Below, one piece after another: positions 1 through 16,695 of a DNA stretch of 23,113 nucleotides. The stretch comes from a virus. Position numbers and translations under genes: made by a program. Numbering within the stretch: position 1 is the first letter of the stretch; each line of letters begins with the position of its first letter. The notes beneath the pieces were generated by a model. The model ran no database searches. It had not been told where the DNA came from and saw only the letters and a list, made by a program, of their open reading frames with translations. Where the stretch lies: the IMG/VR virus record IMGVR_UViG_3300031977_000587, positions 1 through 23,113 of that record; one strand, 5' to 3'.

Positions 1-1664
1 ACACCCTGAAGGAGTACTTCAAGCAGGGTTACTCTGTACGTGACATTCCACATGCAGAGTTGTCAGAGTACCTCTCCCACGACTTACATGCCACTCAACA
101 GTTGTACCTGCGTTTGCAGACATCATACGAGGAATGCAGTTCACTGGCAGCAACGGTCAACCTGACCAACCAGTTAGCTGTACACCTTGCAAAGATATAC
201 CAACGTGGGTTCACTGTTGATATGGCAGCACTTGAAGATGTACGTAAGGAGTTCCAACAGGAACGTGACCAGTTGGTTGTTGATCTTGAGGAACAGGTAC
301 GTGAACTGATGGGAGACAGACCCATCAACTTGAACAGTCCAGAGCAATTGTCTTGGGTTATCTACAGCAAGAAGCCAAAGGACAAGAAGGTATGGGCAGA
401 TTTGTTTGATGACTTTCGTATGACTGACACAGAGTATCGTAGCACGGTACGTCAGAACAGTGAAACGTTGTACAAACAAAAGGCTAAACAGTGCAGTACC
501 TGCAACGGTACAGGACATACGTACAAAACAAGAAAGGACGGTACACGATATGCAAGACCAAACAAATGCACAACATGTAATGCTACAGGGTATATCTTCA
601 TGGATATGCGCAGCACAGTTGCAGGATTAAAGTTCAATGCGCCTACAGCAAAATGGACCTCAGCTAACGGTTTCGCCACAAGCAAGGATAAGCTTGAGTA
701 CCTTGAAGGTGTTGCTAGACAACGTGATATGCAGAACGCAGTGTTGTTCTTACAACGAGTACGCCGTTTGTCTGCCGTTGATACATATCTCTCAAGCTTT
801 GTGGAAGGTATATCGACTCATGTAAAACAGGACGGTAAGCTTCATGTACGTTTGCTACAGCATCGTACTGCTACTGGACGTTTGTCTGGTGCCGATCCTA
901 ACATGCAGAACATGCCACGTGGTGGTACGTTCCCAGTGAAACGTGTGTTCAAGTCACGTTGGGATGGCGGCGAAATCATGGAAGCCGACTTTGCACAGTT
1001 GGAATTTCGTGTTGCTGCGTTCCTATCACAGGACAAGACTGCCATTGACGAGGTGACCACTGGCTTTGACGTACACTCGTACACTGCAAAGGTTATCACT
1101 GATGCAGGACAGAGCATGTCACGTCAAGAAGCCAAGGCACATACATTTGCTCCGTTGTATGGTGCCAGTGGGTTTGGTCGTACACCTGCAGAGGCTGCGT
1201 ACTACGAGCAGTTTACCAAGAAGTACTCTGGCATTGGCAAATGGCATAAGGAGCTTGCACGTGAGGCACTAGCTACGGGTAAGATAAAGACACCATCTGG
1301 TCGTGAGTTCTCTTTCCCTGATGTTACTCGACGTGCTAATGGTACTGTGACATTTTTCACACAGATTAAAAACTTTCCTGTACAATCGTTTGCCACTGCT
1401 GACATTGTACCCATATCCCTGATATACATCGACAAGCTATTAGGGGCAAATCAAATGCAATCATGCATCGTCAATACCGTACACGACTCCATCGTGATTG
1501 ACGTGCATCCCAACGAGAAGGATAAAGTATTACGGATTATTCATGCAGCCAATGACCGACTGCTTACTATCGTCAATAAGAAGTGGAAGCTTGACTTTAA
1601 TGTTCCATTATTATTAGAGGCAAAGATTGGTCCAAACTGGCTTGACACAAAAGATGTGTCGTGA
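1..1664 (+). CDS. Family A DNA polymerase with 3'-5' exonuclease remnant and DnaJ-type zinc insert (5' partial)
   Basis: Replicative phage DNA polymerase of the Pol I/T7 type. The frame is open from base 3 to the left edge, so the true start lies outside the window and the TTG at 60 is not the start. Seen in the sequence: an exonuclease motif III (Y at 69-71, D at 81-83, YxxxD); four cysteines at 492-578 in a C-x2-C-x21-C-x2-C pattern; a TGR...PNMQNMPR segment near 870-925; motif A DFAQLEFRVAA near 987-1019; motif B R-x3-K-x3-F-x3-YG near 1122-1163, with Phe (1146-1148) at the position equal to E. coli Phe762; motif C VHDSIVIDV near 1479-1505, where the usual Glu after the catalytic Asp is Ser. 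The family copies DNA and proofreads. The zinc insert between exonuclease and polymerase parts matches what is described for HMO-2011 phage. A promoter for the next gene lies in its last codons. Confidence 0.95.
   Translation, partial: TLKEYFKQGYSVRDIPHAELSEYLSHDLHATQQLYLRLQTSYEECSSLAATVNLTNQLAVHLAKIYQRGFTVDMAALEDVRKEFQQERDQLVVDLEEQVRELMGDRPINLNSPEQLSWVIYSKKPKDKKVWADLFDDFRMTDTEYRSTVRQNSETLYKQKAKQCSTCNGTGHTYKTRKDGTRYARPNKCTTCNATGYIFMDMRSTVAGLKFNAPTAKWTSANGFATSKDKLEYLEGVARQRDMQNAVLFLQRVRRLSAVDTYLSSFVEGISTHVKQDGKLHVRLLQHRTATGRLSGADPNMQNMPRGGTFPVKRVFKSRWDGGEIMEADFAQLEFRVAAFLSQDKTAIDEVTTGFDVHSYTAKVITDAGQSMSRQEAKAHTFAPLYGASGFGRTPAEAAYYEQFTKKYSGIGKWHKELAREALATGKIKTPSGREFSFPDVTRRANGTVTFFTQIKNFPVQSFATADIVPISLIYIDKLLGANQMQSCIVNTVHDSIVIDVHPNEKDKVLRIIHAANDRLLTIVNKKWKLDFNVPLLLEAKIGPNWLDTKDVS
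492..590 (+). other. DnaJ-type zinc-finger module inside the DNA polymerase
   Basis: The encoded segment reads CSTCNGTG, then about 17 mostly basic and polar residues, then CTTCNATG. The first half is an exact CxxCxGxG unit as in the DnaJ central domain; in the second half the first glycine of the motif is replaced by alanine. Four cysteines fit one zinc ion, that is, one half of the two-zinc DnaJ domain. It sits after the exonuclease motif III and before the polymerase fingers and palm motifs. Its role is not known; binding DNA or a processivity partner is inference. Confidence 0.8.
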
Positions 1665-3446: not shown

Positions 3447-3656
3447 ATGTTAGGTGATGATGAACTAAAAGAACTTCAAGATGAAATTAAAATGCTTGAA
3501 GAACAACTGCGTGAACGAAAACGTGAACTCAGTGAGAAACGATATGCAGGTTTACGTGCAGCAATGGAAGCACGTAAGGAAGCAGATCAGCTACTGAGTG
3601 AAGAGCTTAGGGCATTAGGTGTACGCCGTGTGAACTGGCATCCGTTTCTCGGATGA
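3447..3656 (+). CDS. Small coiled-coil protein, function unknown
   Basis: A protein of about 69 residues, made almost wholly of charged residues with leucines spaced as in a coiled coil (ELKELQDEIKMLEEQLRERK and onward). It has no cysteines, signal peptide or membrane segment. The start chosen is ATG 3447, with AGAGGA six bases upstream; an in-frame TTG at 3441 would add two residues. Its stop overlaps the start of endonuclease I (ATGA at 3653-3656), so the two are probably translated together. It could be a small partner of the neighbouring nuclease genes, but nothing in the sequence proves this. Confidence 0.7.
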   Translation: MLGDDELKELQDEIKMLEEQLRERKRELSEKRYAGLRAAMEARKEADQLLSEELRALGVRRVNWHPFLG

Positions 3657-4105
3657 ACGGTAAGCAGTTTAAGGCTGCACTAAAGCATGGGTATAGGAGT
3701 GGGTTAGAAATCAAAGTCAAAGATTACTTGAAGGAGAAGAAAGTCAAGTTCAAGTATGAAGCCATCAAGATTGAATGGGAAGATTTGATGTACCGCACCT
3801 ATACCCCTGACTTTATATTGCAGAACGGTATCATCGTAGAGGTGAAAGGAAGGTTCACATCAGATGATAGACGTAAGCACGTAGCAATAAAGAAACAACA
3901 CCCAGACCTAGACATACGGTTCGTGTTTGAAAACAGTAGACGTAAGCTAAGTAAGGGTGCCAAAAGTACATATGCTACATGGTGCGAGAGAAATAAATTC
4001 TTGTATGCAGATAGGGTTATTCCAGAAGAATGGTTGAAAGAGAAAGGTATTGACAATCATCCAGACTTAGTAGTATTTCCTTATGACAAAATAAAAAGGA
4101 GCTAA
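3653..4105 (+). CDS. Endonuclease I, T7 gp3-like Holliday junction resolvase
   Basis: A 150-residue protein, close to the 149 of T7 endonuclease I, with clear similarity along its length (RSGLE, YTPDF, GIIVEVKG, SDDRRKH, HPDLDIRFVF, IPEEWLKE). The catalytic set of the T7 enzyme (E20, D55, E65, K67) is present as E19, D53, E63 and K65. The family forms a domain-swapped dimer that cuts four-way DNA junctions and branched replication intermediates, and helps break down host DNA and resolve concatemers before packaging. It starts within the stop of the preceding small gene and follows the Cas4-like nuclease, giving a recombination group next to the polymerase. Confidence 0.95.
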   Translation: MNGKQFKAALKHGYRSGLEIKVKDYLKEKKVKFKYEAIKIEWEDLMYRTYTPDFILQNGIIVEVKGRFTSDDRRKHVAIKKQHPDLDIRFVFENSRRKLSKGAKSTYATWCERNKFLYADRVIPEEWLKEKGIDNHPDLVVFPYDKIKRS

Positions 4106-4109
4106 ACAT

Positions 4110-4430
4110 ATGCTAAATTCACTAATTAACTTTAACCCTAATGATTTCGTTATCCGTATCTCACCAGAAGTAGATGACAGTGGAGATTGGACAGGTGACC
4201 TTACAGTCGGTATGCTAACAACCGACGACAACACAATGAAAGCAGAGGACTTTGCACATCTAAAGATGTTGACGGACATGTTGATAGCTGCTATACCTTT
4301 AATGGAGCAGGATCATGATGTAAGGCGTAAACTGTTCAAGCTAGTTGATCAGATTGATGCTGATGAAATGGCAGAAGACAAACCGTTAATAGAAGAACGT
4401 GACGGTAACGTAGTTAAAGTAAACTTTTAG
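4110..4430 (+). CDS. Hypothetical phage protein, 106 residues
   Basis: Not recognised. The protein is acidic, with an N-terminal part that looks like beta strands (FVIRISPEVDDSGDWTG) and a middle helix (about residues 45-80), and no cysteines, signal peptide or membrane segment that can be trusted. The ATG at 4110 has AAGGAG at 4096-4101. It lies between endonuclease I and a DUF3310 gene, so an early or DNA-metabolism role is likely by position only. Confidence 0.75.
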   Translation: MLNSLINFNPNDFVIRISPEVDDSGDWTGDLTVGMLTTDDNTMKAEDFAHLKMLTDMLIAAIPLMEQDHDVRRKLFKLVDQIDADEMAEDKPLIEERDGNVVKVNF

Positions 4431-4443
4431 AAAGGAGATACGA

Positions 4444-4659
4444 ATGGTAGACAATGTAAACAGCCCACCACACTATAATCAAGCAGGTATTGAATGCATT
4501 GATGCCATTCGTGCCGCCACTGGTGATGGATACGAGTACTATCTACAAGGAAACATTCTTAAATACATGTGGAGATACCGATATAAGAATGGTGCAGAGG
4601 ACTTGAAGAAGGCACAGTGGTATTTGACCAAGCTTATTGAGGAAGTAGATGATAGTTAA
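4444..4659 (+). CDS. DUF3310 family protein (T7 gp1.7 C-terminal-like)
   Basis: A 71-residue protein that matches the DUF3310 pattern almost end to end: VNSPPHY near the start, GIECIDAI, LQGNILKYMWRYRYKNG, EDLKKAQWYL and a closing helix. The domain is common in phages alone or fused to other parts, and forms the conserved region of the T7 gp1.7 nucleotide kinase; the exact activity of stand-alone copies is not established. A strong ribosome site AAAGGAG precedes the ATG. It overlaps the start of the next small gene (ATG at 4649) and leads into ribonucleotide reductase, so a nucleotide-metabolism role fits the position. Confidence 0.9.
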   Translation: MVDNVNSPPHYNQAGIECIDAIRAATGDGYEYYLQGNILKYMWRYRYKNGAEDLKKAQWYLTKLIEEVDDS

Positions 4660-4807
4660 AGTATTCTTAACCTTGAACATAGATGAAGATGAATACCCAG
4701 TTCCTGTAGACGGAGAAGTTGATGAAGAAATTGACCAGAGTTTGCAGGAATTTATTTATGACATTGATGGAATGTCGATCAAAGCAATTAAAATAATAAC
4801 GGAGTGA
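4649..4807 (+). CDS. Small acidic phage protein, 52 residues
   Basis: A short frame from ATG 4649 to TGA 4805-4807, coding for MIVKVFLTLNIDEDEYPVPV and onward, ending IKAIKIITE. The pattern of a beta strand, an acidic loop with EYPVP, a helix (EEIDQSLQEFIYDIDG) and a closing strand looks like a small folded domain; short proteins of this kind are familiar from other phage replication arms. It overlaps the end of the DUF3310 gene by 11 bases, and its stop lies three bases before the reductase ATG. It fills what would otherwise be the only sizeable gap in this arm. Its function is unknown. Confidence 0.75.
   Translation: MIVKVFLTLNIDEDEYPVPVDGEVDEEIDQSLQEFIYDIDGMSIKAIKIITE
4801..4804 (+). promoter_or_regulatory. 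Ribosome binding site deciding the reductase start
   Basis: GGAG lies five bases before ATG 4810. The in-frame GTG at 4804 shares a base with this site and so cannot be served by it, which supports the ATG as start. Confidence 0.65.
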
Positions 4808-4809
4808 AC

Positions 4810-6723
4810 ATGAACAATTTTTTACCTACAGACTATCAATCATTCATTCACACATCACGGTATGCACGGTGGTTGGATGATGAACAACGGCGTGAGTCAT
4901 GGCCTGAAACAGTGACTCGTTATATGGAAAATATTGTAGCACCCCTACTGGATGATGGTTCAGATTGGAGTGTATACGGTGAGATTGAAAATGCAATCCT
5001 TAACCTAGAGATTATGCCAAGCATGAGAGCTATGATGACTGCAGGTGCAGCAGCAGCACGTGATAACATTTGTATGTACAACTGTTCGTACATTCACGTA
5101 GATCATCCGTTTGCTTTTGACGAAGCAATGTTTGTGCTGTTGTGTGGTACAGGCGTAGGCTTCAGTGTTGAACGTCAGTTCGTATCTAAACTACCTGAAG
5201 TACCTCAACTGTACGACAGTGAAACAACCATCGTAGTGAAAGACAGTAAAGAGGGTTGGGCTAAGGCTTACCGTCAAGTGTTGTCACTGTTGTGGGCAGG
5301 AGAGATTCCTAAGTGGGATGTCAGCAAGGTACGCCCTGCAGGTTCACGACTAAAGACATTCGGTGGACGTGCCAGTGGTCCTGCACCACTAGTTGATCTA
5401 TTCAACTTCACTGTACAGACATTCAAGAATGCACAAGGCCGTAAGCTATCATCAATTGAATGCCATGACATTATGTGTTTCATCGGACAGATTGTCGTAG
5501 TCGGTGGGGTACGCCGTTCAGCAATGATCAGTCTTTCCAACCTAAGTGATGATCGTATGCGTCATGCTAAGTCAGGACAGTGGTGGAACGAAGCAGCTTA
5601 TCGTGCACTAGCAAACAACAGTGTGTCGTACACAGAGAAGCCAGATGCAGAGACATTCATGCGTGAATGGTTGTCACTGGTGGAGAGTAAGTCAGGTGAA
5701 CGAGGAGTGTTTAACCGTGAAGCATCTAAGAACCAAGCTAAGAAGTATGGCAGACGTGATCCTAACCATGAGTTCGGGACGAACCCGTGCAGTGAAATCA
5801 TATTGCGATCTGGGCAGGTGTGCAACCTTACAGAAATTGTTGTACGTGCCACGGATGATATTGAAAGTCTGGAACGAAAGGTCCGTCTGGCAACAATTCT
5901 GGGTACTATCCAGTCCACCTACACTAAGTTCCCATATCTGCGAAAGATGTGGCGAGACAATACTGAGGAAGAACGATTGCTCGGTGTGTCTCTCACGGGG
6001 GTAATGGACAATCCGTTAATGACACTAAAGAATAAAGGACTAAATGCAACACTTTCTCACCTTCGCCAAGTGGCTGTTGATACTAATGCTGAGTGGGCTG
6101 ATCGTCTTGGAATTAATCCTAGTACTGCAATTACTTGTAATAAACCATCGGGAACTGTTTCCCAACTCGTTGACTCAGCCAGTGGAATCCACGCACGACA
6201 TAACGATTATTACATTAGAACCGTTAGAGGAGATAACAACGATCCCCTTACCACCATGATGAAAGATCAGGGTATTCCTGCTGAACCATGTGTATTCAAT
6301 CCTGAAACCACTACAGTGTTCAGCTTCCCTGTGAAGTCACCACGTGCTGCGGTTACACGTAACGACATGTCAGCTATTGAACAGCTAGAGACATGGCTTG
6401 CGTATCAACGACACTGGTGTGAGCACAAACCATCGGTGACTTGCACAGTACGGGAATCTGAATGGCTAGAAGTGGGTGCCTTTGTGTACAAACACTTTGA
6501 TGAAATGTCAGGTGTGTCATTCTTGCCACACTCAGATCATACTTATCAGCAAGCACCTTATCAGGATTGCACTGCTGACGAGTATAAGGCATTACTAAAG
6601 GAGATGCCGAAGAAGATTGATTGGACTAAGCTATCCGCATACGAAAAAGAAGATAGCACAAAGTCAAGTCAGACATTTGCTTGCACTGGTGACGCATGCG
6701 AAATCGTGGACATCGGAGCATAG
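4810..6723 (+). CDS. nrdJ: Adenosylcobalamin-dependent (class II, monomeric) ribonucleoside-triphosphate reductase
   Basis: Makes deoxyribonucleotides from ribonucleotides with vitamin B12 coenzyme, feeding phage DNA synthesis. From ATG 4810 the protein has 637 residues, shorter than the roughly 739 of the Lactobacillus leichmannii enzyme. Seen: N325-P-C327-S-E329 (NPCSEIIL), matching Asn406, the thiyl Cys408 and Glu410; C338 exactly 11 residues later, matching Cys419; C88 and C92 in ICMYNCSY, one of which matches Cys119; a PSGTVSQLVDSASGIH stretch at about 446-461; and C625/C630 at the C-terminus, five apart like Cys731/Cys736, which pass electrons to the active site. All redox residues are therefore present. 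No small subunit gene is nearby, as expected for class II. The neighbours DUF3310 and MazG also point to nucleotide supply. Confidence 0.95.
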   Translation: MNNFLPTDYQSFIHTSRYARWLDDEQRRESWPETVTRYMENIVAPLLDDGSDWSVYGEIENAILNLEIMPSMRAMMTAGAAAARDNICMYNCSYIHVDHPFAFDEAMFVLLCGTGVGFSVERQFVSKLPEVPQLYDSETTIVVKDSKEGWAKAYRQVLSLLWAGEIPKWDVSKVRPAGSRLKTFGGRASGPAPLVDLFNFTVQTFKNAQGRKLSSIECHDIMCFIGQIVVVGGVRRSAMISLSNLSDDRMRHAKSGQWWNEAAYRALANNSVSYTEKPDAETFMREWLSLVESKSGERGVFNREASKNQAKKYGRRDPNHEFGTNPCSEIILRSGQVCNLTEIVVRATDDIESLERKVRLATILGTIQSTYTKFPYLRKMWRDNTEEERLLGVSLTGVMDNPLMTLKNKGLNATLSHLRQVAVDTNAEWADRLGINPSTAITCNKPSGTVSQLVDSASGIHARHNDYYIRTVRGDNNDPLTTMMKDQGIPAEPCVFNPETTTVFSFPVKSPRAAVTRNDMSAIEQLETWLAYQRHWCEHKPSVTCTVRESEWLEVGAFVYKHFDEMSGVSFLPHSDHTYQQAPYQDCTADEYKALLKEMPKKIDWTKLSAYEKEDSTKSSQTFACTGDACEIVDIGA

Positions 6724-7908: not shown

Positions 7909-7936
7909 AAAAGAGGGGGCTGTAATGGCCCCCTTA
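7905..7936 (-). terminator. Rho-independent terminator of the virion operon at the convergent junction
   Basis: Arms AGGGGGC (7914-7920) and GCCCCCT (7928-7934) form a seven-pair stem with a seven-base loop; a G-T pair can add one more. On the minus strand the stem is followed after one base by six T (A at 7907-7912 on the plus strand), a classic intrinsic terminator. On the plus strand the hairpin is followed by only a weak T-run (TTATCGT), so it should stop the leftward virion transcript better than the rightward one. The hairpin uses the end of the 1307-residue gene: the stop codon TAA (7936-7934) is partly in the stem. Confidence 0.85.
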
Positions 7937-10900
7937 TCGTATCTGATTACCGTATAATGTTATCTCTCTGACTGTATCAATGTCGTTAAGGTCTGCAGGT
8001 CCATTCTGTGTTTCCCACAATACCTGTGCTCTTCGTCGTACCTTCTTAGGTAGTTTGTTAAAGCCTAAGTATACTTTGGTTTCATCCTCTAGTTCAGCCA
8101 TAGATATTTTACGAAACTTGTTTTTCTTTTCTATTAGGTCTTCTTCAAACTTACGCATGACTACAGCATCAAAGTAGTCATCAAAGGTACGTCCACCTTT
8201 TTCTTTTTCATCCATAAACTCCCAACGATTACGCAGTTGTTCTTCTTTGTTTTGCAGTTTAGGAACGTAAGTCTTTAACCATTCACGTAGGTGTCTATTC
8301 ATTACACGTTTCTGTGTTGGTGATTTAGAATAAGCACTAATTTTAAACTCATTGTATCCTTTACCTTTTAAGTACGCAGCATACTCAGGGTCAGCTTGAT
8401 AGAAGTTTAGACCACCAAACAGTTTCCATGCAACACGTTGACGTTCTGATGTTTCAGACAGTACAAATTCACGTGAAGGTAGGTCTTGTTCAAATGAATA
8501 ACGTTGTCTGAAAGGACGTTCAAAGTTATCAATAAAGGTGGCTTTTCTATTTAACGTAGGCTCTTCTGCGTTGTCTAGGTACTCGTTATTCATAAACCCT
8601 GTAACACGTGCAGCATCTAAGACTTGTGCATAAGGAACTAAGAACGTAGAGAAATAGTTACCTAGTGCAGCACCTGCATCTTTAACTGTGCTTTCATTAA
8701 CAGGTTTACCTGCAAACACAGTAGACACAATGTCATTTAGTATGTATCCAGAAGGTCCAGTTCTAAAGTTTGTGCCCGTAAAAACTTCTACAATTTCATT
8801 AGCATTATTATCTAGCCAATTGCTAAATGTATTTTTTCCTTTATTTATTTGTTTTGTTATTTCTCCTATTAACAGGATAGGACGTAGAGGAAATAATGGA
8901 GTAGCATCTATTACATAACCATCGTCAGCATTTAGTTTTGTGTAATCTTCAGGTGCATCCTCTGAAGAACGATACATAATACCTGCACCTATAAGCATAG
9001 CACCTTGTAGGTTTTTACCTATCATGTCACGTTCTTTACGTGTAAAGGCACGGCGTTCACGTTTAATCATTTCGTCCGTAACTTGTTCAGCTTTTATTCC
9101 GTTTGATTCAGCAATAAGTTGTCTGATATTGTTGTCTGATTGAAATGCTTTACCAACAAAACGTGTAACAGGTATAAGACTACCTGCACCGTACTGTGCT
9201 AGTAGTTCCATACTCTTAAACATGAACCGTGGGAATGGAAGTACAGTAGTCAAACCATTACGAACAATAAACGTGTTTAACTGTCTAAACAATTTGATGT
9301 CTGGTTCGTTTGCATAGGTTAAGTCGAGGGCATTGTACATAGCTTCATCGGCTATATCAATAAAAGAACGTGCACCTTCTGGTCTGACACTAGAAGCATC
9401 TGTCATAATGTCACGTATCTTACCTTCGTTAATAGCTTCAATAAGATCAATGTCCCAATCACGTTTAACTAGACGTTCTACATCTGCAAGGAACATACCA
9501 TTACGCAACATAAATTCTTGCCATCTGTTTGGTGTGTTTAATATTGCTGATACATCTTCGCCACGTGAGATAGCAAAGTCTACTACTTTACCTGCTGTTG
9601 ACTTGGCATTACCCCTACCCATTTTCTTTTGTAGGTCTGCCATTTGATTATAGAAACGGTCAAGGTTGTCTATCAGTTCAGGCTGATTCATTATCAGTTG
9701 GGTATATTCTTTTGCTGCTTTTGGATTTGCAAACATTAACCCCATGTGACGGAAAGAACCTTTCCAACTTTCACGAGATACCATTGATTTACCTAAACCT
9801 GCAAAACCACCATTCTCAAAACCAACAAGAGCATTATCTACTAGTTTACCAATACCTTCCATTGGAGCACGGATAACGCCTGACAATAAGTTTCGTTGTG
9901 CAGTAGCAAGCTGAGAAACCATCATACCACGACGAATGTTTTCAATACGCATCATTGTGTCACGTATTCTGTCTTGGCTTTCCAATAGTTTCTTTTGTTT
10001 GTATGCTTCTTTTTGTGTTAGTGGACGGGCACGTTTAATCTGTGATAGTTTGTTCAATGCTCTACCTGCTTCAGATGCAGAGCCAACAACTGTCATTACA
10101 TAGTCTTCAAAACTAAGGCCGTACTTAGCTAGTGTATCTAGTAGTTCTTGTCCACCAATTAGTTCTTTATCAACTGTAAGATTAAACAGGTTGTCAATAA
10201 CTTTATTGTTATCGTCCCATATACCCATACCAAGAGCTTGCTCTTTATCACGCAAGTCTGCAGCTACAGCTACAATGGCATCAAACTTTTCAGGCTTTAG
10301 TACGGCAGAGAACATCTCTCCTTCTGACATTGACAGGTTAACCGCATCAGAAATATCAATAGAGTCTTCACCTCTGCCAAGTACAACGTCTTGTATGGTA
10401 CGTTTCTTTGCACCTGATACCTGTTCTAGTTTTTCTTTTGAAGCTTTACGTGCAAGCTCTGGATCAATCTCTAGCTTACCATCTACCATACGAGATATTT
10501 TAGTGGTCTGCATACCACTCTCTTTTAATCCTTCTTCAAACTCTAAGATTAACTGAGCAGATACCTCTTGACTTGTACGTGCTCTAGCAGAGGCACGTTC
10601 TTTTTGTTCTTGTGCTTCAATCTCTGTGTTTGCTTTAGCACGATTGATGTCATACTTTTTACGCCAAGCAACACGTTCTTTCTTCACCATCTCTTCGTCA
10701 GGTTTACTAGACTCTACTTGAGCAGTTTTGCTTTTACCTGCTTTGAACTCTTCTGCTTCTTTACGTAGTGACTCTTCCCAACTTTCAAGTTCAGACACTG
10801 CATTGTCCATTTCTTGAAGTGTTTCTTCTTTAACTTCACCTTCAAGTGCTAGTTCTGCTTTAGCATTATTGTGTCCACGAATGTATCTATATGCTTTGGC

Positions 10901-11857
10901 AGCACCCTCAAGTGCGCCACCTATAATAAAACCCTCACCTGCATTACGTAAACGGTTTTTGAAAGCAGTATCGTCTTCATCCATTGCTAAAGATTCAGTA
11001 ACAATGTTTTTCATCCAAGGGTAAGTTTTGTATAAACTAGAAATGTTTTCTTCATAAGGGTCAAAGGCGGTAGCATCTGCAATAGCACCGTTTATAAAAC
11101 CACCTTTAACTCCACCAATACCCGTAGCTCTACGTGTAAGGGCAAAGCTAGTAGCAAACTGTGCCATTCCCTCTACAAAGGTACCTACAACTGTTTCGGT
11201 ATCTGGTATGGCTTCCTCGACAGTCTCAGACACATATTCAGTTGCACCAATAATGCTGTCTTTCAAACCTGCTTTACGTACACGTTCACGGTTCCAGTAT
11301 TCTACTGTTGGTAAAAAGCTATCTGGGTTATCTTTAAATACTACACGGCCTACGTTAAAGTAATCTTCAATTGCTTCGCCTGTCTCTTCAAAGAACTGAG
11401 CAGTTTCACCTACAGCTTTTGCTGCACCTTCACCCATTGCAGTAAACAATTCTTGTGGACGATCACGAAAACGGTATCCGATTACAGCACCGACACCTTG
11501 TTCTTTAATTTGATTATCAATAAGGTTGTTTGCAACTTCCCATGCTTTTTGACTATTAGCATCAGGATTATCTTTTAGATATTGTTTCCATACTTGATCT
11601 TTGTACGTATTAACTTCTTCTTCTCTACCATTATAAATATCTTCTTCCACAGTAATAATATTTTCCTGTGGGTCTTTGGGATTACCTTTAAGTATTGTCT
11701 GTTCAGGTGGTGTTGTAGGTGGACGAGTTACTTCTACATCTTCATTTATTAGAAGTTTAAACTCTTCCTCTTCCTCGTCTTCTTCAGGCATACCTGTCAT
11801 AGGTGCAGGGGCACTGCCTCCAGATACAAGCAATTCATAAGTTTCTTCTTGTTCCAT
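7934..11857 (-). CDS. Very large virion protein, probable internal/ejection protein
   Basis: A 1307-residue protein, the last gene of the virion operon. It has an acidic, proline-rich N-terminus (to about 75), two glycine/alanine-rich hydrophobic stretches (about 225-265 and 305-322) around an FDPYEEN segment, a highly charged helical region (about 340-440), further amphipathic or hydrophobic stretches (about 640-675 with NLLSGVIRAP, and 869-900 with VLPFPRFMF), and a basic, helical C-terminus. There is no signal peptide, and no lysozyme or transglycosylase motif was seen. Size, composition and position after other virion genes resemble the large ejected proteins of short-tailed phages such as T7 gp16, which cross the cell envelope with the DNA; this is inference, not sequence identity. 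The ATG has AAGGGG upstream, overlapping the stop of the 405-residue gene (gap nine bases). Confidence 0.85.
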   Translation of the reverse strand: MEQEETYELLVSGGSAPAPMTGMPEEDEEEEEFKLLINEDVEVTRPPTTPPEQTILKGNPKDPQENIITVEEDIYNGREEEVNTYKDQVWKQYLKDNPDANSQKAWEVANNLIDNQIKEQGVGAVIGYRFRDRPQELFTAMGEGAAKAVGETAQFFEETGEAIEDYFNVGRVVFKDNPDSFLPTVEYWNRERVRKAGLKDSIIGATEYVSETVEEAIPDTETVVGTFVEGMAQFATSFALTRRATGIGGVKGGFINGAIADATAFDPYEENISSLYKTYPWMKNIVTESLAMDEDDTAFKNRLRNAGEGFIIGGALEGAAKAYRYIRGHNNAKAELALEGEVKEETLQEMDNAVSELESWEESLRKEAEEFKAGKSKTAQVESSKPDEEMVKKERVAWRKKYDINRAKANTEIEAQEQKERASARARTSQEVSAQLILEFEEGLKESGMQTTKISRMVDGKLEIDPELARKASKEKLEQVSGAKKRTIQDVVLGRGEDSIDISDAVNLSMSEGEMFSAVLKPEKFDAIVAVAADLRDKEQALGMGIWDDNNKVIDNLFNLTVDKELIGGQELLDTLAKYGLSFEDYVMTVVGSASEAGRALNKLSQIKRARPLTQKEAYKQKKLLESQDRIRDTMMRIENIRRGMMVSQLATAQRNLLSGVIRAPMEGIGKLVDNALVGFENGGFAGLGKSMVSRESWKGSFRHMGLMFANPKAAKEYTQLIMNQPELIDNLDRFYNQMADLQKKMGRGNAKSTAGKVVDFAISRGEDVSAILNTPNRWQEFMLRNGMFLADVERLVKRDWDIDLIEAINEGKIRDIMTDASSVRPEGARSFIDIADEAMYNALDLTYANEPDIKLFRQLNTFIVRNGLTTVLPFPRFMFKSMELLAQYGAGSLIPVTRFVGKAFQSDNNIRQLIAESNGIKAEQVTDEMIKRERRAFTRKERDMIGKNLQGAMLIGAGIMYRSSEDAPEDYTKLNADDGYVIDATPLFPLRPILLIGEITKQINKGKNTFSNWLDNNANEIVEVFTGTNFRTGPSGYILNDIVSTVFAGKPVNESTVKDAGAALGNYFSTFLVPYAQVLDAARVTGFMNNEYLDNAEEPTLNRKATFIDNFERPFRQRYSFEQDLPSREFVLSETSERQRVAWKLFGGLNFYQADPEYAAYLKGKGYNEFKISAYSKSPTQKRVMNRHLREWLKTYVPKLQNKEEQLRNRWEFMDEKEKGGRTFDDYFDAVVMRKFEEDLIEKKNKFRKISMAELEDETKVYLGFNKLPKKVRRRAQVLWETQNGPADLNDIDTVREITLYGNQIR

Positions 11858-11866
11858 TATTACCCC

Positions 11867-13084
11867 TTAGTAATCAGATACTAGATAAGGTGCTCCACCT
11901 AATTTAGGATTTGGTATACCTGTATATATAGCAACCCGAATATTATTTTGTTCATCTTGTAAAATTACAACACCAGCATCTGTAGGTTTTTTAATTGTTT
12001 GATTTAATAGATTGCCTGTTTTTTCTAAAGAAGGTAACTGTGCATATTTTCCATAACGAATGTTGTCTTCTGCACCTGCAACTACACCGCCTGTTGAAAC
12101 TTTACCTTTTGCAAATTCACCATCTGGATTTGCCATAAATTCTTGAGCAACATCCTTGGCATAATCTATTAGTTCTGCTTCTGCTGCTGCTTGAGTACCT
12201 TTTGCTGCAGCAGTCACATTGGCTACTTGTTCAGGTTTAAATTCTTTTACAAAGTTTAACATTCTATCTGCTGCACCGTAGTCCATTAATGCACCAAAAT
12301 ACGGAGCACCTTCAATGTCTGCTACAACAGCCCCTATTTCACCTGCTTCTTTAGTTTTATTACCCGCATACTGTGCTCTCATATTATTAAACAACAAACG
12401 TGGGTCATCTATTATTTGATCAATAGCATCTTCATCTTCTGTTAAAGCAATTGTTTTTAAAATAGTAGCTTGATTCTGCAATGCTGCATTTAAAGCATCT
12501 GTATCGTTTTTGCTAGTGGCTTCCATAATATCTTGTGTATTCATGGCAAGCAAAGCATCTAAAGAACTGGCAGTTTTATTTGGTTTAAGTGCTTTACGAA
12601 TACCTGCAAAGTCAAACCCTGCTACAGGCGCAGGTGCACTAGGTGCATCAGCAGTTGGAATAGCTGCAGTTGTTGCATCTGTAGTTTTAATATTTGTTTG
12701 TACTTTTTTAGCTGTGTCTAACGTATTGCCACCTGCAGTATAAAATGTTTTTGCATCATACCCTGCTTCATTTAATTGATTGCCAATAGTAACTGCTTCA
12801 GTTAAATAACCAAGTCCTTGTGTAGCCATAGCTGCAGCATTATCTTTGCCATAAATAAATGCAGCACGACTAGTAAGGTCTTCAATGTCTTGATTACGTC
12901 TACGTCTTTCACTGGCTGCTGCTGCACCTGCAGATAAAGAGGCACGGCGTTCCATCATTTCACGTTGAAATTTACGTTCAGATGCTAAACGTTCTTCTTC
13001 ACGGATTTCTTCTTCTTTCTCTTCAATTGACTTAACAATTTGTTGAGAAGCACCTGCTAAGAACCCACCAAAATTAAATGCCAT
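11867..13084 (-). CDS. Virion protein with N-terminal coiled coil, putative internal protein
   Basis: A 405-residue protein, not recognised by family. It begins with a glycine-rich hydrophobic patch (FGGFLAGAS), then a very charged coiled coil (about residues 18-70, rich in E, R and K), an alanine/proline linker (about 135-155), and a mostly helical, acidic body. The small hydrophobic head plus coiled coil is a pattern common in phage proteins packed in the capsid or ejected with DNA. The gene overlaps its upstream neighbour by one base (TAATG) with GGAGG before its ATG, and is followed after nine bases by the 1307-residue gene, so it is probably made and used with it. The ejection role is inferred from context. 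Confidence 0.8.
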   Translation of the reverse strand: MAFNFGGFLAGASQQIVKSIEEKEEEIREEERLASERKFQREMMERRASLSAGAAAASERRRRNQDIEDLTSRAAFIYGKDNAAAMATQGLGYLTEAVTIGNQLNEAGYDAKTFYTAGGNTLDTAKKVQTNIKTTDATTAAIPTADAPSAPAPVAGFDFAGIRKALKPNKTASSLDALLAMNTQDIMEATSKNDTDALNAALQNQATILKTIALTEDEDAIDQIIDDPRLLFNNMRAQYAGNKTKEAGEIGAVVADIEGAPYFGALMDYGAADRMLNFVKEFKPEQVANVTAAAKGTQAAAEAELIDYAKDVAQEFMANPDGEFAKGKVSTGGVVAGAEDNIRYGKYAQLPSLEKTGNLLNQTIKKPTDAGVVILQDEQNNIRVAIYTGIPNPKLGGAPYLVSDY

Positions 13085-13599
13085 TACTGCCTCCGTGCCA
13101 TAAGACCCATTGGTTCAGCCTCTTGTGGTTCTGTAGGCTCTTCCATTGGTTCTTCTTTTTTACTCATTTCTTCCTCAGTACTTTCCATTACGTCTGGAAT
13201 TTTTTGTAGTGCTAGTCCTATTTCACTTTCACTAATTGCATCTTTATCTTTACCACCTGCAAGACCAGTATTGTACTCCACTCCTGCTTCGTCACCTATA
13301 TAAGCAAGCATTTCAATAATAACAGGCGTGACTAAAACACCCACATCAATTGTATGTTTGCCTTGCATTACACCGCCAATTTGTAATGCTTGTGCAATAG
13401 TTGTAAGGGGGATACCCATTTCCATTACGTTAAGCAAATCATCCTTAGTATCTGGATTAAGTACTCGTGGTGCATAAAACTCTAAGGCTTCATCCACGGT
13501 TGTATACTGTGGTGGATGCTGCCAAGGTGTCGATCCAAGTTCAGCAGTTAATCCCATGCCTGGGATAGGTGCCATAAACATTCCTTCTTGATTAGCCAT
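13084..13599 (-). CDS. Hypothetical virion-operon protein, 171 residues
   Basis: Not recognised. The N-terminal third is rich in proline and methionine (APIPGMGL), the middle (about 30-110) has a helix-forming core with VLVTPVIIEMLAYIGDEAG that is hydrophobic but short for a membrane span, and the C-terminal 35 residues are very acidic and rich in E, P and M. It overlaps the preceding small gene by eight bases and the next by one, so it is tightly coupled in the operon. It is probably a minor structural or assembly protein. Confidence 0.75.
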   Translation of the reverse strand: MANQEGMFMAPIPGMGLTAELGSTPWQHPPQYTTVDEALEFYAPRVLNPDTKDDLLNVMEMGIPLTTIAQALQIGGVMQGKHTIDVGVLVTPVIIEMLAYIGDEAGVEYNTGLAGGKDKDAISESEIGLALQKIPDVMESTEEEMSKKEEPMEEPTEPQEAEPMGLMARRQ

Positions 13600-13807
13600 T
13601 TAACAATGCCTTTCGTTGTTTACGAACCTGATCTAGTGCATCTAGCACAGAGTCATATGGTTCTGGATTTTTCTTTTCTTCAACTACTTTTTTAGGCATG
13701 TTACGTTGTAACAATCCACCTGTTTTTTGTGCAGGTTTCTTGTCACGGTCAATCAAATCTTTAAGTGCTTTAGTGTAAGCAAGTGAAGAAGCATTATATA
13801 CTGACAT
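13592..13807 (-). CDS. Small basic hypothetical protein, 71 residues
   Basis: Not recognised. A lysine-rich protein with two predicted helices separated by a proline/lysine linker and no cysteines or membrane segment. Its ATG overlaps the stop of the 962-residue gene by one base (TAATG), and AGGGGG lies about nine bases upstream. It overlaps the following gene by eight bases. The position among internal-protein genes suggests a minor virion or assembly role. Confidence 0.7.
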   Translation of the reverse strand: MSVYNASSLAYTKALKDLIDRDKKPAQKTGGLLQRNMPKKVVEEKKNPEPYDSVLDALDQVRKQRKALLNG

Positions 13808-16695
13808 TAAAATAGACCCCCTAGTACTGTGTTGGTTAAGTCTGATGTTAACATTTTTACAATAGCACCACCAAATGCTGCAGATGAATTGTAATCGTTT
13901 TTCATGTTTTGCAAATCAAAGCTTGCATCATTTGCAAGTTGTTGTAATGCAATGCTGTTAAGTCTTTGTGCTTCACTTTCAGATGCATCAAATGCAAACT
14001 TCATTTGGTCACTGTACATTTGCCACAGGTTATTGTAGGCAGTGTTAGAAATGTCCAGTGTATTGATAGCATTTAATTCGTTTGCACGGTTAATGGCAGC
14101 AGTATCTGCAGTTGCAATCTCTCTACGCCACTGAGCATTTGACTGATCAACTACCAACTGGTTCTGTGCATTGAACTGTTCACGTTGGTTTTTCATCTCA
14201 GCATTGAACTGAGACATTGCATTAACTTGACCCGCATTAAAACGTTCCTGTGCATTCTGTTGTTCTGCATTAAACATGTTAATGGTAGAGTTCAGATTGT
14301 CATAGAACTGATTAGCTTGATTTTCTGACTGAGCATTAAACTGCATTGCTGCGTTACGTGCAGCTTGGTCAGTCAACATAGAGTTGATAATCTGTTGTGA
14401 CTTAAATATCTCTGTTTGTTGCTCGTTAGACAAGTTAGCCATGTCTAGTTGCAAGAAGTTCTGAGCATTCTGTACTGCAGTCTGTTGACGGTTGTTTAGG
14501 TTACCCATGTCTAGGTTAGCTAGTGCAGACGCCTCTGCAAGAACCATAGCTTGACGGTTAGACAAGTTCTCTAAGTTCATTGTCTGTACTGCACGAGCAT
14601 TCTCTAACTGAACCTGTTGGTCAGCAGTGAAGTTCATATTAGCAATGTCACTAATCTTACTTGCATTTAGTACACGTGTCTGGAACTCTTGGTCAAACTC
14701 TTGTCCAATAAATGCTGCACGTTGTTCTGCTGCAAGCATAGCACGTTGTTGACGATTTGACAAGTTCTGTGCTTCAAACTGTGCCTGTGTAGCTGCATCA
14801 GCTTGTGCAATTGGTAGTGCACTTTCCATAGCTGCTTGCATAATGGCTTGTCCTGCCATTGACGAAGCACTAAGACCACGAGCAGCCATCTGTTGGTTTG
14901 CTAAACGTACAGCACCTGCAGCCCACGGTGGGGGTGTAGTGCCTTCAAACTGTTCCATCAAGCCTACAAGCTGACCTTGTACTGTGGCTTTCTCTGAAGG
15001 TGTAGCAGTTGCTGCATCAATCTGTTCAGTAAACTTAGCTGCTTTAGTTGCATCTGCAGCAGCACCAGATACTAGCTCACCGTCTTGTATCTCACGTTGT
15101 ACTTCATTTTCAAATTGATATGCAGTACCTTGTGCAGCATCCAGATCACCCACCATACTTGCTGTAGCAGTAGCAGCAGCCACTTTAGCACGAGCATCGT
15201 CTTCGTCTGTCTGTGCTGCGTTTAGTGCCTGTGTCTGTGCAGCCACTTGGTCTGCTTGCACATCTGCTTCGTACTTAGCTGTATCAGGTTGATCTACATT
15301 TGCAGATAGATATGTATCAGCTAATGCAACTTCACTTACACCAAACTCACCAGATACTTGACCACTACCTGCTTCAATAAACTGACCCTGTTGTTGTTTA
15401 ATCATTGTAGGATCAACACGAGCACCTGTAGGCAACGTAGGATCAGTTGCACGTTCAGTCATTACATCTTTAATTGTAGTTTGTGTGGATTGATAAAGTG
15501 GCTGAAGCTGTTGCAGACGGGAGTATGTGTCTGACACTTCTTTGCCCTTAGCTTCTACAAGTTCTTTCAGATATGGATCATCTGGATTGGCTGCAGCTTG
15601 TTGTTGCAGACGTTGTAGTTCTAAGTTTTGTTGTGTGTAGTTAGACTGTGCATTGGTATACTCTTGTTCAATGTTTTCAATGTCACCAGTTACACCACCA
15701 GTAGTTGTTTCAGTGAGATAGCTACGGTAAGCATCTTGTTGTGCTTTATTTTGTGTATATTCTTTACTGCCTTTAAAGTTATTAATGTAAGTAGGAATAG
15801 TATTTTCAGCATCATTCTTTACACTGTTAGGGTTTTTTGCCCTGTTTTTTATTGTAGTACCATCACCATATGTGATTGTCCAATCACCCGATTTACCTGA
15901 AATAGTGTAGTCAGTAGGATCAGCAGGAAGTTTACCCGAAGTAAACATTTCTTTAAGTTCTTTATTAAAGTGACTAGGAACATCAGCAGTGTATTGATTG
16001 ATTACATCTTCGCCTAGTGGTTCAGGCATACCTTTTGTAGGATCGTAATCACCTAAGTCAGGAATAGGCATCGTAGTAACGGGCCTACCTGTCATGTCTG
16101 AGAAGGGAATAAAGTTACCCATAGGGTCTACATAACCCTGTTTTCCATCTTGTGTAGGTATAAACGGTTCTTGTTGAAGTGTTCCATTTTGCTGTTGAGC
16201 ATAGTCTTGTGCTTGTTTATAGTCATCAAGATTAGTCTTTACAACTTTACCTGATTGATCAAGTACCTGAAAACCTGTGCCTGTTTGTTGTGTAGTGTAC
16301 AAAGGTTGAGGTGTTGATGTTTGTGTCTGAGTTACATTAGGACCAAGACCATACGTTTGCATTTTAGGAGTAACTGTTGTTGGAGATGTTTGTCCTATAT
16401 TAGGCAGTGCCATACCACTGTCATCGTTTTTAACTCCTGTTAGTTCTGCATTTGGATCGCCTCTCTGTCCAAACTGAGGTGTTCCACCTACCTGAAACTT
16501 TTGTACTGAACCACCACGTGCCATCATCATAGCTGCTTGTTTAAACTGATCCATCTGTGCTTGTTTGTCAGGATTGTTAGCAAGATACTGCTGAAAGCCA
16601 GACATGTCACCACTGTACCCTAACGTACCTGCAATTCGTTGCATGGCATCTGGCTTAAAACCACCGAATGTAGGATTTTTAAATTGATTAATCAT
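13807..16695 (-). CDS. Large repeat-rich helical virion protein, putative internal/ejection protein
   Basis: A 962-residue protein very rich in Q, N and A. Residues 1-70 hold a helical segment and an ARGGSVQKFQVGG stretch. Residues 70-250 are low in structure and rich in P, T, G and Q. From about 320 the protein is helical. Residues 644-775 repeat every 22 residues (NLSNRQQ, NLSNRQA, NLNNRQQ, NLSNEQQ), and 786-851 repeat every 11 (six units, four of them beginning FNA). The last 25 residues are hydrophobic and glycine-containing (AAFGGAIVKML, VLGGLF). Such 11-residue periodicity gives right-handed coiled coils or long amphipathic helices. Its place before the 405- and 1307-residue genes suggests an internal protein that lines or extends the DNA channel; a scaffold or tape-measure-like role is the alternative. 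AAGG precedes the ATG. Confidence 0.85.
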   Translation of the reverse strand: MINQFKNPTFGGFKPDAMQRIAGTLGYSGDMSGFQQYLANNPDKQAQMDQFKQAAMMMARGGSVQKFQVGGTPQFGQRGDPNAELTGVKNDDSGMALPNIGQTSPTTVTPKMQTYGLGPNVTQTQTSTPQPLYTTQQTGTGFQVLDQSGKVVKTNLDDYKQAQDYAQQQNGTLQQEPFIPTQDGKQGYVDPMGNFIPFSDMTGRPVTTMPIPDLGDYDPTKGMPEPLGEDVINQYTADVPSHFNKELKEMFTSGKLPADPTDYTISGKSGDWTITYGDGTTIKNRAKNPNSVKNDAENTIPTYINNFKGSKEYTQNKAQQDAYRSYLTETTTGGVTGDIENIEQEYTNAQSNYTQQNLELQRLQQQAAANPDDPYLKELVEAKGKEVSDTYSRLQQLQPLYQSTQTTIKDVMTERATDPTLPTGARVDPTMIKQQQGQFIEAGSGQVSGEFGVSEVALADTYLSANVDQPDTAKYEADVQADQVAAQTQALNAAQTDEDDARAKVAAATATASMVGDLDAAQGTAYQFENEVQREIQDGELVSGAAADATKAAKFTEQIDAATATPSEKATVQGQLVGLMEQFEGTTPPPWAAGAVRLANQQMAARGLSASSMAGQAIMQAAMESALPIAQADAATQAQFEAQNLSNRQQRAMLAAEQRAAFIGQEFDQEFQTRVLNASKISDIANMNFTADQQVQLENARAVQTMNLENLSNRQAMVLAEASALANLDMGNLNNRQQTAVQNAQNFLQLDMANLSNEQQTEIFKSQQIINSMLTDQAARNAAMQFNAQSENQANQFYDNLNSTINMFNAEQQNAQERFNAGQVNAMSQFNAEMKNQREQFNAQNQLVVDQSNAQWRREIATADTAAINRANELNAINTLDISNTAYNNLWQMYSDQMKFAFDASESEAQRLNSIALQQLANDASFDLQNMKNDYNSSAAFGGAIVKMLTSDLTNTVLGGLF
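14110..14766 (-). repeat. 11/22-residue helical repeats inside the 962-residue protein
   Basis: In the protein, repeat units begin at residues 644, 666, 688, 710, 732 and 754 (exactly 22 apart), with the core N-L-x-N-R-Q kept in four of them. After a one-residue phase shift, 11-residue units begin at 786, 797, 808, 819, 830 and 841, with FNA at the head of 786, 808, 819, 830 and 841, and a weaker SNA unit at 852. The DNA repeats are diverged, so this is an old, selected protein periodicity rather than a recent tandem duplication. Confidence 0.85.

Follow-up and report, generated by a model that had tools for sequence, protein, structure and literature searches.

Whole-hendecad length steps in a late protein of HMO-2011-type phages suggest a measured helical rod in the DNA delivery machinery

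Genomic context of the array gene

The stretch of DNA analyzed here (the window) comprises the 23,113 nucleotides of IMG/VR record IMGVR_UViG_3300031977_000587 and is, on sequence grounds, assigned to a podophage of the HMO-2011 type with marine bacterial hosts. Its relative Roseobacter phage CRP-1 shares 89% identity with it in the matching parts. Phages of this type infect SAR116, RCA Roseobacter and SAR11 bacteria and have been described as short-tailed; in HMO-2011 itself the coat is of the P22 type, and an Hc3-like head-closure match is present. The family A DNA polymerase encoded at window 60-1664 carries a DnaJ CXXCXGXG zinc-finger-like insertion that is already known in HMO-2011-type phages. 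The late genes are located on the minus strand, where amidase/hub-like and tail fibre genes are followed by a gene for a 962-residue protein and then by genes of 71, 171, 405 and 1307 codons:

13807..16695, minus strand: open reading frame for the 962-residue predicted rod protein (HMO-2011 gp25/CRP-1 gp35 family), the family being present in 27 phage records according to tblastn
13592..13807, minus strand: 71-residue module gene; peptidoglycan hydrolase genes stand at the same place in some relatives
13084..13599, minus strand: 171-residue module gene; of 149 testable loci, 145 have a relative no more than 2.2 kb downstream of the array gene
11867..13084, minus strand: 405-residue module gene; the AF2 model is mostly helical
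7934..11857, minus strand: 1307-residue module gene; of 122 testable loci, 116 have an open reading frame of at least 600 residues at this place, no further than 4.2 kb away

The 962-residue gene thus heads a conserved module with the order array gene, small gene, ~171-residue gene, ~405-residue gene and giant gene. The 171-residue family (window 13084-13599) is conserved and nearly universal beside the array gene, and its window member gave no match in PHROGs (E ≤ 0.01) or in Pfam (E ≤ 0.1). Between the array and 171-residue genes, CRP-603 encodes a PF07486 cell wall hydrolase, CRP-13 an SLT transglycosylase and CRP-207 LysM together with a weak GH19 match, and in CRP-235 LysM is found on the array protein itself. 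This content is as expected for an envelope-penetration module.

Hosts among the 27 records include Puniceispirillum, Pelagibacter, Roseobacter, Rhizobium, Sinorhizobium, Vibrio, Aeromonas and Pseudoalteromonas. Comparison of the 962-residue protein with Pfam and PHROGs yielded nothing informative, and sequence searches of the PDB returned chance hits only. The papers surveyed contained no virion proteomics of homologues; that the protein belongs to the virion and is ejected, as assumed in the preliminary description, is what we infer. The protein can be divided as follows:

15076..16695, minus strand: N-terminal region, residues 1-540, differing greatly in length and content among relatives (LysM in CRP-235)
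14776..15018, minus strand: conserved helical domain preceding the array, residues 560-640, with near-invariant columns, AF2 helices and the motif PxWAAG...RGLxxSSxA...SALPIAQxDA
14128..14814, minus strand: hendecad array of ~21 hendecads, residues 628-856, with P628 and W856 as anchors, defined by periodicity and the homologue lattice
14368..14766, minus strand: array block 1, residues 644-776, 22-residue NLxNxQQ units, defined by autocorrelation and register
14128..14367, minus strand: array block 2, residues 777-856, 11-residue QFNA units, defined by register and lying within a predicted continuous helix
13810..14127, minus strand: C-terminal region, residues 857-962, in which a fixed spacer of 35 residues from W856 to W891 precedes a Gly-rich hydrophobic tail at about residues 938-962

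Periodicity and register of the array

Exact periodicities of 22 and 11 residues had been proposed for 14110-14766, i.e., residues 644-862. Autocorrelation of residues 641-900 gave z-scores against shuffles of 8.3 at lag 22, 5.9 at lag 44, 4.8 at lag 11, 4.1 at lag 33 and 3.5 at lag 55. The periodicity is real and stronger than first noted. The six units spaced by 22 residues are represented by NLxN-type sequences at residues 644, 688, 710, 732 and 754 together with a degenerate one at 666, and the six units spaced by 11 residues by FNA at 786, 808, 819, 830 and 841 together with a degenerate FYD at 797; SNA at 852 comes after the last FNA unit.

What did not stand is the extent of about 200 residues in two blocks, as the periodic region constitutes a single longer array from P628 to W856 (about 14128-14814). 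Written as 11-mers from P628, its register continues without slip as far as W856. The asparagines of NLxN and of FNA both fall on phase 5 from P628, such that the one-residue shift reported between the blocks is absent; it arose because an N landmark had been compared with an F landmark, and the hinge that had been placed there is an artefact of this choice. Asparagine occupies phase 5 in 65-82% of cases, glutamine is found at phases 0 and 21 in block 1 and phenylalanine at phase 4 (71%) in block 2. TRF detected no tandem repeat at the DNA level in the array of this genome, and for that reason no recent slippage is visible here.

Array length among homologues

Lag 11 or 22 was among the leading lags in all 22 phage homologues examined. 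Array length was measured in 190 sequences including viral contigs as the distance between two non-repeat anchors, the proline of SALPIAQ and the tryptophan of NLWQ, which were found by separate profiles. The distances took 15 values (175, 186, 197, 208, 219, 252, 263, 318, 351, 373, 483, 571, 593, 681 and 703), with 189 of the 190 sequences giving 10 modulo 11. The sole off-lattice array, L158 (array ORF at 6041), has a distance of 352, one residue too many, an excess that a sequencing error or a tolerated skip could explain. Under no modulus other than 11 do all 15 values fall into one class, and N-terminal regions and C-terminal tails have lengths in all classes modulo 11. Thus, the question whether homologues vary in steps of 11, raised in the preliminary description as its own test, is answered in the affirmative, and apart from L158 no irregular insertion that would break the register was seen.

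On a tree built from the anchor regions, Fitch parsimony indicated 19 length changes, with a single observed length class off the lattice. The bigger jumps often amount to 110 residues, as in the series 263, 373, 483, 593 and 703 and in the series 571 and 681. L140 exhibits 45% identity at lag 110, from which it follows that ten-hendecad segments were duplicated. Very long arrays, with 571-703 residues between the anchors and apparently grown by 110-residue duplications, occur in L140, L143, L145, L126 and L123. If fully helical, the rods of the relatives range from ~21 to 100 nm in length, the longest arrays, such as that of L140, having 668 residues from the proline to W856 (~100 nm); the same span is 151 residues in phiM6 and 228 in the window protein. 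The lattice shows which lengths are tolerated and, because recombination between repeats itself yields whole-unit changes, may partly reflect this process rather than selection on register.

Predicted helix type

Proline is absent from the arrays and glycine makes up 1.4%, with alanine at 17%, glutamine at 16% and asparagine at 15%. AF2, supplied with an alignment of viral-contig homologues, predicts helix nearly throughout, including one 123-residue helix (residues 757-879), with block means of pLDDT mostly between 66 and 81; confidence is low in array block 1 and the prediction applies to a single chain. The hydrophobic moment at 98.2 degrees, the first harmonic, is close to zero (median 0.17 per 100 residues vs. 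3.84 for the second harmonic), the second harmonic exceeding the first in 190 of 190 arrays. No heptad signal (102.9 degrees) was present in the tabulated arrays, so that 11-residue periodicity without a heptad phase, the mark of an 11/3 hendecad, was found. On these grounds, the array is predicted to be a hendecad coiled-coil rod and not a membrane-lying helix; of the two structures originally suggested, the straight 11/3 coiled-coil-type rod is supported, also by the length steps of 11 in 189 of 190 homologues, and the helix of the apolipoprotein type is not.

The two hydrophobic stripes of such a bifacial helix were considered as evidence for an alpha-barrel tube and rejected, since a control, the trimeric coil of the P22 needle, shows the same dominance of the second harmonic while phiX174 H does not clearly do so; given the behavior of the needle, the harmonics cannot separate a trimer from a tube. 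By analogy, the S74-type ends of 17 relatives hint at trimers. Foldseek and VIA-align searches with the AF2 models of the 962- and 405-residue proteins gave generic helical matches only in the PDB, and matches to viral models at E ≤ 0.001 were unannotated phage proteins, one of which is named DUF4214.

Comparison with known phage proteins

In 17 relatives the Gly-rich tail is followed by a Peptidase_S74-type domain, identified by Pfam in four isolates (CRP-3, CRP-212, CRP-235 and CRP-738, all above the cut-off) and by the SDxxLK motif in 13 contigs; the 962-residue protein from the window has no S74 domain above the Pfam cut-off. S74 cleavage falls before the serine of SDxxLK. The mature protein would then have a C-terminus similar to that of members without S74. 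The S74 domain of the relatives is homologous (99.3% probability) to the C-terminus of gp20 from Salmonella phage 7-11, annotated as a DNA ejection protein, and the 7-11 gp20 family includes SU10 gp22. In SU10, gp20-24 are part of the virions and are missing from genome-release intermediates (PMC9509320).

By inspection, P22 gp7, SU10 gp22 and 7-11 gp20 seem to resemble the window protein and its relatives in the order of a GxxGS-like motif, an A/Q/N-rich helix and a Gly-rich hydrophobic tail, although these motifs are weak; the location in a podovirus late module and the optional S74 domain are shared. Unlike the rod protein, 7-11 gp20 is devoid of hendecad periodicity. Outside S74, homology to the ejection proteins of 7-11, SU10 and P22 was not detectable, with hhalign E-values of 0.16 and 0.28 vs. 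0.18 and 0.24 for reversed controls. As profile comparison does not bear out homology, the rod protein is said to work like these proteins and is not classed with them.

The pilot protein H of phiX174 forms a decameric DNA-translocating tube whose coiled-coil domain contains Q-rich hendecads (PMC7354561). Their best register against block 1 places Q on Q, but the match as assessed by PSSM is not significant (p ~0.09), HMM scores for homology were no better than chance and, unlike the rod protein, H has just three hendecads which are then followed by heptads.

Proposed function and alternatives

The unbroken register and the quantised length suggest a measured helical rod in the machinery by which viral DNA crosses the bacterial envelope. 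Of the explanations considered, the best, though unproven and with an assigned probability of roughly 0.5, is a pilot protein that serves DNA ejection in a short-tailed phage, working like P22 gp7 or SU10 gp22, and whose middle helix has expanded to a hendecad rod. This reading is favored by the 11-residue lattice in 189 of 190 arrays, the lack of proline and the predicted helix, by the conserved module order with peptidoglycan hydrolases inside the module in some relatives, and by the homology of S74 to 7-11 gp20 combined with the loss of SU10 gp20-24 after genome release. By this expansion the A/Q/N-rich helix would have become a single hendecad (11/3) coiled coil free of interruptions. Carried in the virion, the protein would leave early, and the array may assemble as trimers or higher oligomers into a straight rod or conduit measuring ~34 nm from anchor to anchor in the window protein. 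Its Gly-rich hydrophobic C-terminus would enter a membrane, and the 171-, 405- and 1307-residue partners would complete a trans-envelope complex. Only whole hendecads would survive because, as we propose, indels other than multiples of 11 break the register along the whole rod.

On the other hand, homology to ejection proteins is detectable in S74 alone, the lattice could stem in part from the manner in which repeats recombine, and the longest arrays (~100 nm) would fit neither the periplasm nor, when straight, a capsid of roughly 55-60 nm. Outside the capsid, very long arrays pose no problem, and the main and serious rival, possible though held with less conviction, is an external trimeric tail needle or central tail fibre, i.e., a hendecad coiled coil plugging or hanging from a P22-like tail hub with S74 as trimerisation chaperone. 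A needle is expected given the P22-type coat and Hc3-like match of HMO-2011, and the array gene occupies a relative position like that of the P22 tail needle gene 26, directly before the ejection genes, which also counts against an ejection role. S74 chaperones are reported to fold trimers in the T5 L-shaped fibre (PMC4690869) and in MYRF (PMC6972908). The needle gp26 is a long coiled coil with the harmonic signature of the arrays, but it is heptad-based, has 233 residues and lacks the Gly-rich hydrophobic C-terminal tail; with this tail and 42% A+Q+N the rod protein is closer to ejection proteins of the gp7/gp22 type than to gp26, which has 26% A+Q+N and is most hydrophobic close to its N-terminus. 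Moreover, sequence similarity to gp26 was absent (HMM scores near 0), and the hydrolases in the module of some relatives argue against a needle.

A length-setting rod of the particle, either a tape-measure-like ruler or an inner core, appears unlikely. Tape measure proteins of some phages do vary in the number of 11-residue repeats (PMC3271669), and array length likewise changes by 11, including the 110-residue duplications. However, the HMO-2011-type isolates that carry the rod protein are described as short-tailed, with no long tail to measure, the siphophage units bear W/F markers in place of the N/Q/F markers found here, and none of the tape-measure families matched the 962-residue protein. 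A membrane-lying amphipathic 11-mer helix of the apolipoprotein or synuclein type, for which the 11-residue repeats and the moderately hydrophobic tail could speak, is highly improbable in view of the near-zero first harmonic and the very polar array.

The 11-residue length units, until now reported for long-tailed phages in their tape measure proteins, are extended to short-tailed phages, and a rod quantised in 11-residue steps in nearly 200 relatives allows a direct test of whether the ejection parts of podoviruses serve as rulers and of how they span the envelope. A tentative and rather doubtful proposal is that short-tailed phages use the array as a molecular ruler, the hendecad count setting the length of a trans-envelope conduit or tail extension; if true, related phages would offer at least 15 natural lengths (~21-100 nm) for matching to the envelope depth of the hosts.

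Additional genes near the array gene in relatives

Some relatives carry further genes next to the array gene. In Pelagibacter phage HTVC033P two genes for 2OG-Fe(II) oxygenases and one for a putative ferrochelatase (positions 400-2514 of its locus) are located just upstream of it, an unusual cargo for a late module. Genes annotated as toxin-activating lysine-acyltransferase lie beside or near the array gene in HTVC115P (4405-4854 of its locus) and CRP-235 (3572-3994), perhaps a sign that a virion or ejected protein is acylated.
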